The position numbers were made by a program, and so were the translations under genes. The notes beneath the pieces were generated by a model. The model was given only the letters and a program-made list of their open reading frames with translations, was not told the origin of the DNA and made no database searches. Shown here one piece after another: positions 41,538 to 61,600 of a stretch of 64,000 bases of DNA. Numbering within the stretch: position 1 is the stretch's first letter; each line of letters opens with the position of its first letter. This DNA comes from Reticulascus tulasneorum (lineage: Eukaryota; Ascomycota; Sordariomycetes; Glomerellales; Reticulascaceae). Location: assembly GCA_001557505.1 (NCBI GenBank), contig LSAX01000004.1, positions 496,001 to 560,000 of the forward strand, given 5' to 3'.

Positions 41538-44500
41538 ATGAGCAGGAAAATGGATCTGTACAAAATGGTGATCCTGGGGGACGGCGGAGTGGGAAAGACA
41601 GCGCTCACAATCCAGGTTTGTTCTCACTCAATCTAGCCTTACACATTTGCTCACAATATTCTAGTTGATGCTCCAGCACTTTGTGGAGACTTACGATCCT
41701 ACCATCGAGGATTCGTACAGGAGACAAGCCGTGATTGATGGCCAGGGTTGCATGATTGAAGTCCTCGACACTGCAGGCCAAGAAGAGTATACCGCTCTCC
41801 GGGATCAGTGGATCCGAGATGGCGAAGGGTTTGTCCTCGTGTACAGCATCTCATCTCGCTCATCGTTCAGCCGCATACATCGATTTCATAATCAGATCCA
41901 AAGGGTGAGAGAGGCATGTGCGTCGTTGCCCAGCTATCCCGGCTCTCCACTCACTGCACGCTTTGACTCTGGTGGGCCAGTCCCGATCATGTTGGTAGGC
42001 AATAAATCCGACAGGGTAACGGAACGAGAGGTATCAACCCAGGATGGCCATGCGCTTGCCCGGGAGCTAGGTGTTGAATTTGTGGAGGGTTCAGCCAAAA
42101 ACTGCATAAACGTCGAAAAGGCATTCTATGATGTTATCCGTATACTGAGACGGCAACGCATGCAGCGTCAGCGATTGCAGCAATCAACAAAATCACAGAT
42201 CCCGGCATCTCTGGCAGAAGGGAGTTTCTACAGAACAAAAAGGACGCTATGGGGCACACACAGGATCTCTATTCCGCAACAAGAAATTGGCACAGAACTT
42301 GGTCGAGGCAAGCTTGTGGCTTCTCTTGTATCTTCGGCCAAGTCCAATAATGAAAAGATGCTACTGGCATACGTGGGTGCTGGTGCGGACGTCAACGGAC
42401 ACTCTGGTGCGGACGTCAACGGACACTCTGGTGCGGAGGGAAGTGCCTTGCACGCATCCGCCGCGGCTGGCCATCCCAACATTGTCAATATTCTAATAAA
42501 AAAGGGGGCAGCTATCAATGCTCTGGGACCAACAGGAACCCCGCCATTACAGTTGGCTGCAGCAGAGGGGCACCTCGCGGTCGTCCGTCTCTTGGTTCAC
42601 AAAGGTGCCACAGTCAACCAGACAAGTAACTTGCACGGGACAGCGCTTAGTGCTGCAGCTTCACGCGGAAGAGCGGAAGTAGTGCGGTTCCTTCTCAAAA
42701 ATAAGGCCGATGTCAGCATTCCCGGCGGTCCGTATGGCTACGCGTTACTTGCGGCATCCTGGAACGGCAACCCCCACGTTATAAAACATTTACTGGATGC
42801 CGGGGCGGATATCAAAGCAAGAGGTGATGGGGATTTCACAGCTCTTCAAATGGCCGCCTTTGTTGGAAAGGCTCAGGCCATTCGAGTCCTGCTCGACCGA
42901 GGCGCAAAAGTGGATATCGATGCTCCAGGAGAAAGATACGGATGTGCCCTAAAGGCAGCAAATGATCGCGGTCACTTCGATGCGGTTACTATGCTACTTA
43001 ACGCCGGTGCTAAGCCGGTAGATATTGAGAAGAAGAAGGGAGATGGAAAGGATGAGAAAGAGGCCGAGGAGAAGGACTTCAATGGCAGCGAAACGAAAGA
43101 CGCAACTCCAAGCGACTTACCGCGATGCGACAGCATAGCAACCACCCTCGTATCGCCACTGGCAAAGTCAACAAGCCCGTTAACAGAAGAACTCGGGCGG
43201 CCACTCCCGCTGCCACGACCAATCTCGCAAGTATCTCTACCCCAGAGCCGGACTTTTAGCGAACAACGTCGCTCGATTCAGCTTCCGATTCTCAAATCTC
43301 GTTGTAAGATAAATTCAATCGGATTCTCGACAATACACGATTCTCCCAATGCAGCAGTTGAGTAGGTGCCCCTGGATTAACGACAGAATAAGCCGGTGAC
43401 CGTGTTCTAACTTTCCATCTAATAGCATAGTGTTCATCCACGGGTTACAAGGCCATCCAGAAAGAACCTGGACATACACTGGGCCATCCGCAAACTTGAG
43501 GACAACACTGAGGCAAAGGATGTTTCGCTCGGTATCGACGTCAGTGATCGAAGATTCCTCCTCAGTATACTGGCCATATGATCTGCTGGCACAGTCCGAA
43601 GACTTCGCTGATACCAGAATATTGGCATGGGGGTATGATACAAAGGTCGTGCGGGAGTTTTTTGGAACCACTGATCAGCAGAATATTTCTCAGCATGGGA
43701 ACAATCTCATGGTCAGCTTGCAGCAGGAAAGAAAGTCAAATGTTAGTTCAATGTAGCTAATCATTGAGGGAGGATCTAATATCATCCTAGGCTGATCGGC
43801 CATTGATCTTTGTAGCCCATAGCCTTGGAGGCATCGTACTCAAAGTGGTAAGCATCGGAAGTTTTCGGGATTGACTGAGAGATATTTTTAACAAAGATCC
43901 GGATATAGGCTCTAGAGAACTCGAGAAGATCAAGCTACCAGCCGCAGTACCTTAGTATTTACAATGCTACGAAGGGTATCATTTTTCTTGGCACACCTCA
44001 TGGCGGATCAGGCACAGCAGATTGGGGACTTATCGTAAGCAATATCACGAAATGCGCTATGCAAGGACCATCGCAAAGGGTTCTGCGTGGCCTCACGCCA
44101 AACAGCGAGCTGCTGGAGAACCTACGGAAAGCATTTCTGCAGATGCTCGAAGACAACAGATTCAATATACATTCGTTCTTTGAAACTAGGCCTGTTCTTA
44201 GCATGTATGGTCTGAATAGTTTGGTAAGCCGTTTTACAGGGGCAGTACTATGCCGAGAACGACAGTCTGCTAACGATAGATGCGTTAGGTTGTTCCATTC
44301 GAATCTGCTCTTGTGGGCCATGCAAGAAGAGAAATCTCTCTAGGGCTCCCGGGAAACCACTCAGAGATATGCAAATTCTCAGGCTTGGACGACCCAGGCT
44401 ATAAGGCTGTTTTTGGTGCGTTACAAGACTATGTCCGAGAGGCAACAGGTCATACAAGAGCCGTAAGCAAGACTGCTGTTTCATACACTGCAAAATATTC

Positions 44501-44657
44501 GGGGCTGCCGCAACTCGAACTATCCATGGGACAGCCGCTTGATCTCGGCGACATGTCCGATATATATGCCCACACTCCCAGCACTACCTCCGAACAACAA
44601 ACAGCGGCAACATCTCCTGAAATGTCCAGCTCCGTTTCCATCGGATTGGCATTTTAG
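41538..44657 (+). CDS. Ras GTPase - ankyrin repeats - SERAC1-like alpha/beta hydrolase fusion
   Basis: Six exons, 41538-41615, 41665-43361, 43426-43741, 43791-43847, 43909-44223 and 44289-44657, give 943 residues. Residues 1-200 are a full Ras-type GTPase: P-loop GDGGVGKT (14-21), switch I YDPTIEDSY, DTAGQEEY with the catalytic glutamine, NKSD (139) and SAK (169). Residues about 240-480 are ankyrin repeats (GTPPLQLAAAEGHLAVVRLL, LVHKGATVN). After a charged, Ser-rich linker, residues 593-860 are a SERAC1/DUF676-like hydrolase: IVFIHGLQGHPERTW, nucleophile serine in FVAHSLGGIVLK, FLGTPHGG, and histidine in GNHSEICKF. Ras and ankyrins share one uninterrupted exon; the hydrolase is joined by a 64-nt intron with GTAGGT donor and TCTAAC branch site. 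There is no CAAX box. The logic (nucleotide switch, repeats, hydrolase effector) recalls fungal NLR proteins but with Ras in place of NACHT. Function inferred only. Confidence 0.85.
42382..42429 (+). repeat. 24-bp in-frame tandem duplication in ankyrin region
   Basis: The 24-base unit starting GGTGCGGACGTCAACGGACA occurs twice in a row (42382-42405 and 42406-42429), with the first 8 bases of a third copy. It encodes GADVNGHS twice. The copies are identical, so the duplication is recent or is kept uniform. Confidence 0.9.
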
Positions 44658-45350: not shown

Positions 45351-46741
45351 TTATACGCAAGCTAAACAAAAAAGGGCTGTATTGGGCTAAAGGTCTACAA
45401 AATGCATACCACGTACGTGCTCCCGTCAAACCCGTGCATTCGTCCTTGCTGTAAATGCCTTGACTTTCTGAAAGCAGTGAGCTCCGAGGGAACCCTGGGC
45501 GATGCGAGCGCGTGATCCTCAAATACCCTTGGTCTCACAAGCAGGGAAAATTCATCCTCTTGGTCCGACGGGAGCCTATTAGCAACGTTCAATGCTACCA
45601 GTTCCTTCATTAAGTCAAGCCGGCGGATCATGCCCTCCACCCTGGTCGCTGCTATTCGGAGGTACATAACTTTCTTCAGCCGGACCATGCCACTCTTTGG
45701 TCCATGATACACCACGGTCCATTTGTCTCCTTGTTTTTGGTAGCTCCATTGCCAATCACTGGATCGGTTAATAGAGTCGATTTTCTTAAGGGTTGCCCAC
45801 GTCTGGGGCTCCAGTCTTAGACGCACCCAGTCGCAGTTCTCATACCTTGCAATCTCGGCGTCGAATCTCGCCATGTATGCCACGTACGAGTCTAGAAAGT
45901 GCCCGGCCGGACGGGCGCCTCGATCCTCTCTGAGAAGTGCTCGAAGCACGGGTAAGACATTTTCTAAGTCCGTCTCTGCAGGAAAGATCGCACTCCACTC
46001 TGTCGTATGGATAAGTTGAACAGAGTTCCAAAATGGTAAGGAACGAACCATCGGCTTCTTCCCTTCCTCAATCATCTTACTGACCTTCGCAAGCTGAAAA
46101 TTTTGTGCCATCTGCAGATCCTGGAGTCGATATACCGTGCTGTTGGCCCCGGGACCAGGCTGCACCATGAACAACAACTTGTCGCCACAGCACACCAACT
46201 GGAAGACCAGTTGAACGCTAGTAGGTCTCAAAACCAGGTACAAGCAAGCGCTATCTCCCCGGTTAAGAACGAAGAGATGGTCATCTTTTTGAATAGGGCA
46301 GGCCTTCGGCACTCCGGTACGGACGACTAGGTACCAACTATGATCCATCCACCAGTTGGCATCGAATTCAAGAACTTCAAAGTCGCCGGAACTCTCCACC
46401 ACTCTGGGATTACTTTCGATTTGAAATATTCGGATAAGCTTGATGCGCAGCGCCCCGGTTGACTGATGGATGGCAGCACCTTGATACCACCCACACTGAC
46501 TATCGTACGGCGGCCCTTCACCCGACCAGCCCAGCCTGACTTTGTGCCAGTCACATTGCATGACCTGATATCCGGAAGATGCGTATTTTCCCAAAAACTC
46601 TGTGGCATCGGCAACAAACGGCAAGAACCTAGCCATCCTAAAGGAACGCCCGTTATTCGGGGCAACGAAGTCTTCTTCGAGGACGTATTTGTAACCGTCA
46701 AATTTCAGTTCTCTTAAAAGCTTCCTTTGCCACTCCCGGCT
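45241..46741 (-). pseudogene. in-frame continuation of the HET gene beyond a TGA stop
   Basis: Directly after the TGA at 46744-46742 the same frame stays open for 448 codons, to 45395. The junction has no usable in-phase intron that would remove the stop. The text right after the stop (REWQRKLLRELKFDGYKY) looks like ordinary coding sequence. I also see a possible last intron, 45416-45362 (GTACGT to TTTAG, in phase), leading to a 39-codon end (RGSNYKVGRSGARIRAPKDL) that stops at 45241. That end segment is duplicated at 48937-49057, which supports it being exonic. The region has no domain I can name. Alternatives: the HET gene truly ends at 46742 and this is a second gene starting at an internal ATG (46636), or the stop is read through or is a sequence error. 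Confidence 0.6.
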
Positions 46742-48070
46742 TCAATGCCTAGCCTCGGCACTCTCGAGGTCTAGCTGCGCTTCGAGCGGCGACGTCGATG
46801 TCAGCGAAGGGATCCACGAAGGGAGAGAGCCATCGCTTCTAGATCCCATGGCATTCTGCAAGATTCGAGTGTCGAGCAAGTTCAGAAGGCAATGGGCAAA
46901 GATGCCGATGAAGGCATGCTTGCTGGAAATGGAATAGTCAGGGCGGATGAGCAGCGATAGGTCCTCGATCAAACCCAGGATGCCAAAGACTTTATCCCGC
47001 GAATCCGACGCCTTGCAGATCGAGGTCATTCTCAGAATCTCCAGCAGGCGGGTCGGGGATTTTCCCGGAAGCCAGCGCTGTGCCATGTGCTGGAGCCAGG
47101 GAGCTGCGGTGTCATTCCAGTCCCATTCCGGAACCGCCGCCTGGAGGCGGTTGGAGGTGACATGGTCGCCCACAAACTCAACATCGCCGACTCGGAAAAG
47201 CACCTGTTTGGAGATGACAAGTTCCTGGACCACCCACACACGGCTGAAATATTTTCGTTCCATGATCTGTTTAAGCGTTGAGCCCTTGATAGCGGTGCTT
47301 TGGAGATGGTGAAGTCCGCGTCTTGGGACATACGGCGTTGACGTTGAAACAGCGGAGACAATGTCTTGGCCTAGGTGCACGTACACGCGAAAGGCATCCT
47401 CGTAGATTCGGCCCATCTTGGCCACCTGGTTCTCTCTCTCTGTCCTGTTCCGCTGGTCGATGCATATCGCGTCCACCCAGATGGTCCGATCCCTGCCGGC
47501 GTGGGGTCGGAGAGTCTGGAGCATGTCCCAGCAGTTCTTTGTTTGGAACAGCACGTCCCACCATCTTCCGACATAGATGGGCCTGTGCCGACGGGCGTCG
47601 CCATCCTCGCCGCCCCAGGTGTACGATACGGTCTCGTACTCCGGATAGTTATCGTCTGTAACCGTGAGTAGTGTTACGTGGATCGGGTGGCTGCCATCCT
47701 CGACGGGGTGGACGCGAAGAAGACGAATTTCGTTGGGCAGCAGAGGCCGTTCGTAGATCGTCGAAACATCAAGTTGACAACTGCCTGGATCGACAGCTGG
47801 GTCCGGGGATTCGATGATTTGATTGCCAGGCTGGTTGGCCTCCGCCGATGAGATGGAAGCGAAATACCGGACGCACGGCGGCCAGTGCAATTTCATGTCC
47901 CCGCTATCCTCATCTGGGGGCGGCGGAGGCAGGCCCTCGGAGTCTGCTTGTTTGGAAAGCAGCTTCTCGAGCTGGGGAGTGCTGTTGCATGTCTTGCAAT
48001 ATGGCGTGTTGTTCCCCGGCTGAATATGAATCTCGGGAGCCTTGCAGCCGTGTTGATGCCATCGCGCCAT
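46742..48070 (-). CDS. HET-domain (heterokaryon incompatibility) protein
   Basis: A single open frame of 442 codons on the minus strand from the ATG at 48070. The N-terminus holds spaced cysteines (HGCKAPEIH, YCKTCN) that could bind a metal. All three HET blocks are present in order: YETVSYTWGG (about residue 155), IWVDAICIDQRNRTERENQV with MGRIYEDA (about 195-225), and FSRVWVVQEL (about 270). DSRDKVFGILGL and RPDYSISSKHAF follow, as usual for the family. HET proteins trigger cell death when genetically different hyphae fuse and can be effector parts of NLR-like systems. The frame ends in TGA but continues unbroken afterwards (see 45241-46741), so this may be a truncated allele. It converges on the Ras-ankyrin-hydrolase gene. 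Confidence 0.9.
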   Translation of the reverse strand: MARWHQHGCKAPEIHIQPGNNTPYCKTCNSTPQLEKLLSKQADSEGLPPPPPDEDSGDMKLHWPPCVRYFASISSAEANQPGNQIIESPDPAVDPGSCQLDVSTIYERPLLPNEIRLLRVHPVEDGSHPIHVTLLTVTDDNYPEYETVSYTWGGEDGDARRHRPIYVGRWWDVLFQTKNCWDMLQTLRPHAGRDRTIWVDAICIDQRNRTERENQVAKMGRIYEDAFRVYVHLGQDIVSAVSTSTPYVPRRGLHHLQSTAIKGSTLKQIMERKYFSRVWVVQELVISKQVLFRVGDVEFVGDHVTSNRLQAAVPEWDWNDTAAPWLQHMAQRWLPGKSPTRLLEILRMTSICKASDSRDKVFGILGLIEDLSLLIRPDYSISSKHAFIGIFAHCLLNLLDTRILQNAMGSRSDGSLPSWIPSLTSTSPLEAQLDLESAEARH

Positions 48071-48736
48071 CTCTGCACCGCACTGAGTTTTGTTGCCATG
48101 CGACGGTCCGATACAAGCGAAGTCGACGTACTTAGAAACTGAACTCTAGGTTCAGGCGGAGAAGACTCACACCATGCCCAGCAGAGTCGTTGGGACCACT
48201 TGCAATGCAATCGAGAATGGAAAACCGCTAATTTGGGAGGTTTACATTCATTATTCGATAGGCTCTTTATGGTGCCGTGGCGGATGTGCAGCGGCTACCT
48301 CAATAAGACCCAGCAAGAGGTAAGGGATGTGCATTTCTGCTGCAGCCTGCAATGGGTCACGGGCATTGCTCCCATGGTGGTGGCTGAGGCCCTGAATCCA
48401 TGCCACTCCAGAAACGATTTATTCGACGCTGAGAAATTCCTACCTGTTACCGGGACAGTGGCCAAAGATATGACCCAAACGATCCACGCGATCGAATCAT
48501 TTAGCTTTCGGTCACAGTTGGGATGGGCACCCTAGCCCATACAAAATGACCATGCGTTTTAGCACTTTTTCCCGAAACAATTCCCCTTTCTAGAACTAGG
48601 CGACTGCGTAAATTTCGGTGTAGTCTTCTTAATTAACCAACGCCTGGCGGACTGGGCCGCAATTCCCAAGCCAGGCCTTACTGGTGGGCTTGACCTCTAA
48701 TTAAGTATTTGCCAGTGGCATAAGTCACCTCCCTCC
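48071..48736. other. intergenic upstream of the HET gene
   Basis: It should contain the HET promoter. The 111-codon plus frame at 48200-48535 is not recognisable. Confidence 0.5.
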
Positions 48737-58672: not shown

Positions 58673-61600
58673 ATGCGTTTCTCGATAATTATCCAGGCAC
58701 TGTTTGCCGCTGGGAGCGGACTCGCTCAGCGCAGCAGCATTCCTCGACGAGGAGCTGAGAACTCGGTATTCAACGAGACCGAGGCAACCCAGCCAACACA
58801 AAAGCGCTATATTATCGAGTTTATTGAGGTGCTCTTCTTGAAATCTGCTGAAGTCAGCAGCATGCTGATATAGTAATTCGTAGGGAACCAACCAACAGGC
58901 CGTCATAGACCAAATCAACTCCCGTGATGGCACCAAAGTTCTGAAAATTTTCAACTCTGATGTCTTCAGAGGTGTCAGCGTTGAGTCTGATACGGAGAAC
59001 ACCGATTCACTCCTGGCGATCAATGAAGTCTCACAGGTCTGGAAATCCAACCTGATCAAGCTAGAACCCATCATTAGCGGTGAATCCTTCAGCGACGATG
59101 CTACGGCGCCAGAATACTCTGTTCACAACATGACTGGCGTGGATAAGCTCCATGCTGCAGGAATTTATGGAAAGGGGGCCGTGGTTGCTGTAATTGACAC
59201 GGGAATTCAGTATACGCACCCTGCAGTAGGTTATCCTATGGTTTCAGGCAAAAAGTATACTTGGTTGACATGCGTAGCTCGGCGGAGGCTTCGGTCCCGG
59301 TTTCAAGGTTGCTGGAGGCTATGATTTTGTTGGGAGTGGTAGTCAGTACCTCCAAAACCACCTACTCTTGCCTACATGACTGAGCGAGGTTGGCACTGAC
59401 ATCCCAAATTGCTTAGCCTGGCCCCTTGCACCGGCAGAAAAGGAACCAGACTCGGATCCGATGGATATCATCGGCCATGGAACGCACGTGGCGGGCATAA
59501 TCGCAGGGCAAAGCGATTTGTACGTCTTCTCTCTTGCTGACTAACAGCAATTTTGATCCTAACGTTGTCATTCTGATGTCAGGTTCACGGGTGTGGCCCC
59601 TGAAGCAACTCTTCTCGCATTCAAGGTGTTTGGGCAAGTTGTAGGTACTCTAATCACTCGAAGCAAGAGTCCCTGAAACTAATTATGCTTAGGACGGGAC
59701 AGACGAAGACACGTTGATGGAGGCTTTTATCATGGCCTATGACGCTGACGTACGGCATTGTCCACCTCGAGCAGCCCTGACATGTATTTTGAACGGATGG
59801 CTAACACGATGTTCAGGTGGACATCATAACTGCTAGTATTGGTGGAGCATCAGGGTGGTCAACAAACGCATGGGCAGTACTAGCCTCTCGCCTGGTAGAG
59901 AAGGGTGTTGTCGTCACTATTGCAGCGGGGAATAACGGTCTTTGGGGGCCATTCTTCATTAGTAATGGCGCAGCAGGCGAAAACGTCATTGCGGTGGCTT
60001 CCACAGAAGCTTCAACCATACCTGCTCAGCCGTTCTCTGCAACATTCAACCTGGACGGACAATCCAACGTCACCACCGTTGCATATCTAGCTGGATCGAA
60101 CTTCTTCCCTGCTTCCATCAAAGACTGGCCCATTGTCCCGTTAACACTTGACACATCCGTGGCAGCGGATGCTTGTGAAGCCCTTCCAGAGGATACAGGA
60201 GACCTCTCACAAGTTATCCCGCTTGTCCGCGTAGGCGGGTGCGATGTCATGGTTAAACAAACAAACCTCGCCCCTTTCAACCCACCATACATCCTTTTCT
60301 ACAACGACGAAGGCCCTGTAGCGGATGTCGGCTCATGGTATGACTTCAGTCTTCTGGGACTAATTGAAGAAGAGGCTGGGAAAGCCATCATTTCCACTGT
60401 AGCGGCTGGAGGCAACGTGACCGCTGACTTCTCAGCGTTCGAGACGACTAACTATGTTGGTATGCATAACGCAATCGGTGGCAAGCCCAGTTATTTCACC
60501 TCGTGGGGTAGCACCTTTGACCTCATCCTAAAGCCGGACATTGCAGCCCCAGGCAGCCGGATCCTCAGCACGTATCCAACAGATTCTTACCGGGTATACA
60601 GCGGGACGAGTATGGCGACACCATACGTCGCAGGCGTTGCGGCACTTTTTGTGGGACAATATGGCGGTAAAAAGACCCACGGGCCTGGTTTCGCGAAAGA
60701 TCTTGCAGGGCGAATTACTGGGAGTGGCAGGGCTATCAAGTGGTCGGATGGAAGCGCAACCGACTTTGGTTTCTGGGCGCCAACGATCCAGGTCGGCAAT
60801 GGGCTAATTGATGCATTCAAGGTATTGAACTACAGCACCAGCCTGTCGTTTACGAAGTTCAATCTCAACGACACGCATCACTTCAGCAGATACCAAGCAG
60901 TGGATATCACCAATGCTGGAAAAGAAACAGTCACATACAAGTTCGCTATCCAGGATGCGGGAGGTTTCGAGTCCTGGTCGACGGAAGGTTTTGGATCCCC
61001 GAGGGTCAATGACGGATCGGAAGGAATGCTACCTTTCAAGATCGTGCCAAAGGTTAAGCTGCCGGCGGGCACTTTCAAGGTGAAACCCGGGGAGACCAAA
61101 AAGGCAGAGTATGTTCGGTGGTACATTTTACCTAGTCCAACCACGCTAACTGGAAAAACAGGTTCATATTCAGCTTACCAGAAGGGACCAATTCCTCCAA
61201 GATTCCCGTTTACAGTGGCAAGGTCCTTGTAAGCGGTAGCAATGGAGATGAGGTATCCGTCCCGTACTTCGGTATGTCCCCAATCTGCTCCTCATGTCAA
61301 GCGTCGGATTTGAACTAACGTACCCCCAAGGCGTCGCCTCCGATATTAAAGAGGTGATTAGCAATGTAATCACAACCCAATGGGGCTATCCGTTCTCGTA
61401 CTCAACCAACTCTGTGATAGAAATTGAAGAGAAGCCCTTGTGAGTTCCACGTCGTTGATAAGAAATATTAGAATCGTTAATGATTTGGGATAGCTGGTCT
61501 TTCAACCTCACTTTGGAAGAGCAGGATTACCCCAAAGTCTTTCTCAGGCTCGTTTGGGGGACTAAAGAACTTCGTTGGGACGTACGTAATTCTCGAATGC

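Follow-up and report, generated by a model that had tools for sequence, protein, structure and literature searches.

A predicted fungal protein joining Ras, ankyrin repeats and a SesB/SERAC1-like hydrolase, and its possible kinship in design with NOD-like receptors

Introduction

Fungal NOD-like receptors (NLRs) carry twelve recorded classes of N-terminal domain, among them the sesB-like, PNP_UDP, PKinase and Peptidase S8 classes (Dyrka and others, 2014, PMC4986451), and in a survey keyed on the nucleotide-binding (NB) domains NACHT, NB-ARC and AAA nine Sordariales NLRs were found to carry CHK2-like kinase domains at the C terminus, proposed to be integrated decoys (PMC12258605). In bacterial conflict systems a Ras-like AP-GTPase displaces the STAND (signal transduction ATPase with numerous domains) module (PMC8195603). 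Here we analyse a stretch of 64,000 nucleotides (nt) from Reticulascus tulasneorum, called the window (positions 496001-560000 of contig LSAX01000004.1, C15 in our numbering, in an assembly of 42.8 Mb and 35 contigs), which contains a gene predicted to join a Ras GTPase, ankyrin repeats (ANK) and a SesB/SERAC1-like alpha/beta hydrolase in one chain. Similar ingredients occur in ROCO proteins such as DAPK1 and LRRK2, where the GTPase is Roc, a separate family, followed by COR.

Results

The gene and its splicing

The gene comprises six exons encoding 943 amino acids (aa), with the following features:

41538..44657, + strand: whole coding region, ATG to TAG (homologue-guided splice model)
41538..41615, + strand: exon 1 (MSRKMDLYKMVILGDGGVGKTALTIQ, Ras P-loop), alignable from Met1 with the ras-2 of the same genome
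41616..41664, + strand: intron 1, 49 nt, GT-AG (splice model)
41665..43361, + strand: exon 2, the remaining Ras, the ankyrin repeats, the linker and hydrolase beta-strand 1
43362..43425, + strand: intron 2, 64 nt, phase 2, within the hydrolase domain
43426..43741, + strand: exon 3 (splice model)
43742-43790, + strand: intron 3, needed in the splice model
43791..43847, + strand: exon 4, a 57-nt micro-exon with the nucleophile motif HSLGG (Ser708 codon 43821-43823)
43848-43908, + strand: intron 4, needed in the splice model
43909..44223, + strand: exon 5 (splice model)
44224-44288, + strand: intron 5, needed in the splice model
44289..44657, + strand: exon 6, with NHSEICK (His845 codon 44358-44360); its C-terminal tail has no CAAX
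41562..42147, + strand: Ras domain, aa 9-187, broken by intron 1 (Pfam PF00071, E 5.8e-48)
42352..43014, + strand: ankyrin array, ~aa 256-476 (Ank_2, E 4.6e-42; model of the orthologue P0001)
42382..42429, + strand: exact 24-nt tandem duplication in the ankyrin exon, giving GADVNGHS twice (array 42380-42437, 2.4 copies)
43015..43314, + strand: linker, ~aa 477-576, predicted disordered by analogy with P0001
43315..44465, + strand: SesB/SERAC1-like alpha/beta hydrolase, ~aa 577-880, cut by introns 2 to 5 (homology, aligned starts, Pfam, tree)

The introns of this model are all GT-AG and 49 to 65 nt long. Its splicing rests on homologues: for the last exons, candidate splice sites alone allow 144 open models, from which homologues select one. 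From the N to the C terminus the chain thus reads Ras (9-187), ankyrin repeats (~256-476), linker and hydrolase (~577-880). Pfam matches on the full chain are strong for Ras (E 5.8e-48) and Ank_2 (E 4.6e-42) and weak for the hydrolase (Abhydrolase_6 at 6.2e-4 and DUF676 at 1.8e-3, both below their own cut-offs), and exons 3, 5 and 6 taken singly match no Pfam family at E 1. A first-pass annotation made from the letters of the window had placed Ras, ankyrin repeats and a SERAC1-like hydrolase in one chain, as both the model and the homologues bear out. The well-formed intron that it saw at 43362-43425 is also in keeping with the sequence (GTAGGT...TAATAG, phase 2, with a branch-site-like CTAACT), and the Ser and His motifs that it called intact hold on the homologue-guided model as Ser708 (HSLGG) and His845 (NHSEICK). 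Its statement that a complete Ras domain lies within the 1.7-kb exon has to be corrected, since the first 26 residues, including the P-loop, sit on exon 1, followed by the 49-nt intron.

Homologues argue for a genuine fusion

The frame of exon 2 reaches a TAG at 43363-43365, and an annotated Trichoderma model, P0022, does stop there, as would be expected if a Ras-ANK gene ended at this codon and the hydrolase were a separate downstream gene. Against such a split, exon 2 ends, ahead of the TAG, with the hydrolase strand GFSTIHDSPNAAV, preceding DIVFIHGLQGHP, and the rest follows in exon 3, and NLR-type hydrolases such as P0223 open with a similar strand at their N terminus (GFSILFDPVDATTDLVFVHG); intron 2 therefore lies inside the hydrolase domain. 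The comparison of start strands is based on the aligned starts of 10 NLR-type rows, one of which (P0225) lacks the strand, and a rough pattern for it matches only 10 of 90 NLR-type rows. The downstream frame (43400-43756) has no Met ahead of VFIHGLQ. Several species also read through in separately annotated models of the whole chain, including those of Xylariaceae sp. FL1272 (P0001), Glarea lozoyensis (P0023), Trapelia coarctata (P0011) and Fusarium poae (P0046). Homologues in which the hydrolase is always a separate gene, named in the first-pass annotation as the finding that would count against a fusion, were not what we met: among the matches listed, 22 other proteins carry all three parts in the same order.

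The Ras-ANK proteins in which we detected no effector (42, see below) bear on the same point. Nineteen of their open reading frames (ORFs) stop at this very strand, with E before the stop, like exon 2 of the window, and six extend slightly past it; a common end at this place fits a conserved splice donor. Thirty-eight of the 42 come from sources other than NCBI (labels lgn, jgi and ena), and we took the ORFs so labelled for environmental single-frame ORFs. Three NCBI-named models in which no effector was detected, P0022, P0031 and P0057, weigh the other way. The strand before the stop, the Met-less downstream frame and the ORF end shared with homologues lead us to reject the split gene, which we regard as scarcely credible; to judge from the sequences compared, the Ras-ANK-hydrolase fusion is genuine and not an artefact of the gene model.

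A family with varied C-terminal effectors

Three homologue searches were made, from which we used the best 120 of 1087, 3190 and 261 matches, the first two having scored only ~8000 candidates. Among the matches listed, Ras occurs together with this ankyrin part in at least 88 proteins, including that of the window, and their third module is a hydrolase (23), a kinase (11), a nucleoside phosphorylase (PNP; 10), a subtilase (2) or none that we detected (42). The order Ras-ANK-effector is the same in all 46 effector-bearing members, the window protein included. Carriers that were looked up belong to the Leotiomycetes, Lecanoromycetes, Eurotiomycetes, Dothideomycetes and Geoglossomycetes, and members from Xylariaceae and Fusarium are also listed; in the R. 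tulasneorum genome the window gene is the one place that we saw with Ras and ankyrin repeats together.

Most of these modules retain their catalytic motifs: HxDxKPxN and DFG are found in 11 of 11 kinase members, the Ser motif in 17 and the His motif in 19 of 23 hydrolase members, and all of the subtilase motifs in P0090 and two of three in P0061. In a tree of the Ras and ankyrin parts (45 of 46 rows), the four effector classes cluster and five changes of class are needed against a minimum of three, which suggests that the effector module may have been exchanged repeatedly; the long branches of P0090, P0091 and P0092 are insecurely placed and contribute to this count. All four classes appear in the NLR table of PMC4986451, SesB-like by homology and tree in the case of the window protein, and PNP_UDP, PKinase and Peptidase S8 elsewhere in the family. 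The family may hold further effector classes. The listing for P0059, consulted for kinase kinship, shows Ras and ankyrin chains. The divergent members P0061 and P0090 (subtilase), P0068 (kinase) and P0092 (distant hydrolase) hint at repeated capture of effectors.

The hydrolase is akin to those of NLRs

Homology, a GxSxG-type nucleophile (HSLGG), the catalytic His (NHSEICK) and the tree assign this domain to the SesB/SERAC1-like hydrolases, with activity as a prediction. The best 120 of 261 matches in the hydrolase search comprise 21 Ras proteins and 99 others listing NPHP3_N (PF24883), which we take to be a NACHT-type NTPase, or NB-ARC (PF00931); in a sample of 17 non-Ras matches, 16 have NPHP3_N and 13 NACHT. 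The position of the hydrolase separates the two groups: it starts within the first 35% of the chain in 99 of the 99 non-Ras matches listed and ends past 75% of the chain in 22 of 23 Ras matches, the exception being P0220, a longer model that also places the hydrolase after Ras and the ankyrin repeats.

The hydrolase tree included 20 of the 23 Ras-linked rows (the others were too short) and, of the 90 usable NLR-type rows, the 45 most like the query. Nineteen of the 20 Ras-linked hydrolases form one clade (support 100/99) within a 24-row clade (100/99) that also holds five NLR-type rows, from Fusarium, Cordyceps, Pestalotiopsis and Nemania. This placement makes the predicted hydrolase close kin of those of the NLR type, and capture presumably ran from an NLR to a Ras-ANK protein. 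The hydrolase of P0092 falls outside the clade on a very long branch; a single clade is not rejected (approximately unbiased test, p-AU 0.107), and P0092 is a possible second capture. NLRs of ordinary order with such hydrolases are also encoded in the R. tulasneorum genome, namely L018 (hydrolase, NPHP3_N and ANK, the hydrolase recognised by its start motif and a search match, not by Pfam), L019 (hydrolase, NB-ARC and TPR) and L020 (hydrolase, NPHP3_N and WD40). A search of solved structures with the hydrolase gave a best E of 0.32, and Foldseek and VIA listed Ras and ankyrin chains, which have no bearing on the hydrolase fold.

The Ras part is of the ras-2 type

The fused Ras has the G1-G5 boxes and the Ras switches I and II, which place it in the ras-2 subfamily. 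Over 191 aa it has 86% identity with L002, the free-standing ras-2 encoded in this genome; its P-loop and both switches do not differ at all from those of L002, and GTP cycling is likely by these motifs. Whereas L002 ends in CVVL, the fused chain ends in SIGLAF, in agreement with the first-pass annotation, which had seen no CAAX end in it; membrane anchoring by prenylation is not expected of the predicted protein, since CAAX is absent. In 31 family proteins the Ras start is complete, and among these pattern searches found G1 in 30, G3 and G5 in 29 each, G4 in 27, switch I in 26 and CAAX in none. The frame of L002 continues at the position of intron 1, its first break following ...HFVET, and because the intron positions differ the fused Ras is probably not a recent duplicate of ras-2.

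The Ras parts of effector-bearing members are 38-75% identical to that of the window. The Ras tree, with 44 rows (27 of the 46 effector-bearing fusions, those with enough Ras, and 17 of 24 Ras proteins without ANK), is poorly resolved, and a single or a repeated fusion would both be possible on it.

The ankyrin array resembles a fixed scaffold

Ank_2 identifies the middle part as superstructure-forming repeats, as in NLRs. Identity among the repeats within the array averages 0.29 (0.26-0.44 in six other family members), as against 0.70 and 0.54 in L021 and L022, NPHP3_N-ANK proteins of the same genome, so that the internal homogenisation of recognition-type NLRs is lacking here, as it is in a further NLR of that genome, L017 (0.26); repeat units were found by a crude motif, with 4 to 11 units per protein. 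Position by position, the repeats are 0.58-0.85 identical to those of P0001. By this pattern the array resembles a fixed scaffold, not a hypervariable sensor, and would more probably serve an autoinhibitory contact or an internal partner than simple non-self recognition. L021 (2711-5293) and L022 (694-4080), with their alike repeats, are candidates for fast-evolving recognition repeats. The 24-nt tandem duplication adds eight residues without counterpart in P0001 and is possibly recent.

P0001 is 74% identical to the window protein in Ras, 72% in ANK and 72% in the hydrolase. Its structure model (mean predicted local distance difference test score, pLDDT, 68.0; predicted template modelling score, pTM, 0.41) is mostly confident in Ras and ANK, with 10-residue blocks of the array at pLDDT 87-97, and partly so in the hydrolase core, residues 731-831 excepted; it does not allow domain docking to be read. 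Residues 471-558, the linker, score under 50, and disorder predicted there fits a tethered output domain. The model of the PNP-type P0041 is poor past Ras-ANK (mean pLDDT 51.6).

Neighbouring genes in the window

An ORF with a HET domain (PF06985, E 2.5e-25) lies at 46742-48145 on the - strand, ~2 kb downstream of the Ras-ANK-hydrolase gene and convergent with it. Another ORF in that frame (45395-46741, - strand; 448 aa) is set off from it by an in-frame TGA (46744-46742), either a nonsense mutation or part of an unmodelled intron. A subtilase ORF (Peptidase_S8, E 1.7e-20) is found at 59808-61229 on the + strand, ~15 kb from the Ras-ANK-hydrolase gene.

Discussion

A model for Ras-ANK-effector proteins

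The reading we favour, with slightly better than an even chance of being right, is that the gene belongs to an NLR-like protein family of several Pezizomycotina classes, where a copy of ras-2 stands in for NACHT or NB-ARC, the ankyrin array is the scaffold and a variable, tethered C-terminal effector provides the output. The chances seem evenly balanced that Pezizomycotina have in these proteins a second lineage of NLR-like type, outside STAND, that acts in immunity or cell death, with a captured ras-2 as switch or bait and a C-terminal effector slot. The fused Ras would exchange GDP for GTP, probably through ordinary Ras exchange factors and GTPase-activating proteins, because both of its switches are unchanged. 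Its nucleotide state would then open or cluster the Ras-ANK unit, the ankyrin repeats acting as a binding or autoinhibitory scaffold that passes this state on, and the opened or clustered unit would release the hydrolase or recruit it to membrane lipid. By analogy with NLRs, cell death or a defence signal would follow. We infer that Ras would gate the effector and that immunity or cell death may be the output.

Several observations weigh against this proposal. Effectors are C-terminal in 46 of 46 effector-bearing members and not N-terminal as in NLRs, and no effector was detected in 42 of 88 Ras-ANK proteins, the NCBI-named models P0022, P0031 and P0057 among them. The effector search was confined to the four classes that appear in the Pfam columns of the matches listed. 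Of these, PKinase is a non-canonical NLR domain that is C-terminal in nine of twelve cases, and Peptidase_S8 is rare or absent in Sordariales NLRs, according to PMC12258605. The Ser motif is missing from six of the 23 hydrolase members, perhaps because the micro-exon was skipped, and there is no prenyl anchor to account for access of the hydrolase to membranes. The low internal conservation of the repeats argues for a fixed partner over variable non-self recognition. The hydrolase tree is unrooted, its root being for drawing only, and the Ras tree marginally rejects the placing of all fused Ras parts in one clade (p-AU 0.043).

Other explanations share part of the evidence. Ras is a growth regulator, and the Ras-ANK unit could target and allosterically regulate an enzyme of lipid modification or signalling that serves the control of growth or stress, outside immunity and cell death. 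An ordinary Ras-regulated enzyme of this kind would agree with an ankyrin array conserved repeat by repeat in P0001 and with the like rates at which Ras, ANK and hydrolase diverge from that protein (74, 72 and 72% identity), but its catalytic module would hardly be expected to be swapped for a phosphorylase, a kinase or a subtilase, all of them in the 2014 NLR table (PMC4986451), and we consider it unlikely. Less probable still is that the fused ras-2 copy serves as a guarded bait, a sensor and not a switch, such that an attacker of Ras-2 (a mycoparasite, a mycovirus or a bacterium) modifies the copy and thereby frees the C-terminal effector. Its 86% identity to the cell's own ras-2, with P-loop and both switches unchanged, would suit a bait, as would the integrated decoys proposed for fungal NLRs (PMC12258605). 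A bait alone explains neither the ankyrin scaffold nor the GTPase motifs kept in most members, and the Ras parts of effector-bearing members, at 38-75% identity to that of the window, are too divergent for a faithful one. To our knowledge no parasite effector acts on fungal Ras, which also counts against it.

The same ingredients, a Ras-like GTPase, ANK and, in one branch, a kinase, could also point to a ROCO-type protein related to DAPK1 and LRRK2, with a Roc GTPase, ankyrin repeats and an effector. The Roc profile does match, at 58.8 bits, but the Ras profile scores 163 bits over the same residues, a profile search finds no COR at E 0.01, only ~70 residues lie between Ras and ANK, and the stand-alone ras-2 that the genome also encodes matches at 86%; a ROCO-type protein is thus very improbable.

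Literature and significance

Among the matches listed from the open-licence PubMed Central literature (10 of 163 in one search) we found no title or abstract describing a Ras-ANK-effector protein, a scope that leaves aside subscription papers, preprints and supplements. Neither Ras nor GTPase occurs in the main text of PMC12258605 or in the text of PMC9815663, Ras is absent from PMC12881547 and PMC1325252, and the sole word starting with "Ras" in PMC4986451, where GTPase was not searched, is an author's name, each as far as the available text of these papers extends. The first-pass annotation, which knew of no described system with this architecture, agrees with that literature to this extent; the architecture is not peculiar to the window gene, however, as 22 other proteins share it. 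The Ras-ANK family would escape any survey that, like that of PMC12258605, starts from NB domains. The replacement of STAND by a Ras-like switch has a precedent in bacterial AP-GTPases (PMC8195603) and is thus not wholly new.

If the proposal of an NLR-like family is true, fungi would have built a second modular class of death or defence proteins, with an ordinary Ras for the STAND NTPase and NLR effectors in reverse order, and Ras signalling would be directly linked to fungal cell death. NLR logic would then be independent of NACHT and NB-ARC, and a non-STAND lineage would couple Ras signalling and fungal immunity in one molecule. A small, well understood GTPase with locked forms would make the question of the switch directly testable.

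Comparison with known systems

With canonical fungal ras-2 (L002), the window protein shares the 86% identity over 191 aa, the P-loop and switches and a similar insert with SYPGSP; it differs in its lack of CAAX, its other intron position and ~750 extra residues of ANK and hydrolase. With SERAC1 and the SesB-like lipases it shares the hydrolase motifs and family, one homologue (P0256) being named Protein SERAC1, whereas the SesB-like domain is N-terminal in fungal NLR versions and C-terminal here; we know of no Ras in SERAC1. ROCO proteins and AP-GTPases likewise combine a Ras-like GTPase, ANK and an effector and set the precedent for a Ras-like switch replacing STAND, but here Ras scores far above Roc, COR has no match and the effectors are of the fungal NLR kind. 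The first-pass annotation had seen NLR-like parts with Ras in the place of NACHT or NB-ARC and the hydrolase moved to the C terminus, and both the order of the chain and Pfam, which finds no NACHT, NPHP3_N or NB-ARC on the 943-aa chain at E 0.01, agree with it. Fungal NLRs, as described in PMC4986451 and PMC12258605 and as found in the same genome (L018, L019 and L020), share with the Ras-ANK family their effector classes, superstructure-forming repeats, a P-loop NTPase in the chain and varied effectors on like cores; in the window protein, by comparison, the NTPase is Ras and not STAND, the effector is C-terminal and the ankyrin repeats are not homogenised.

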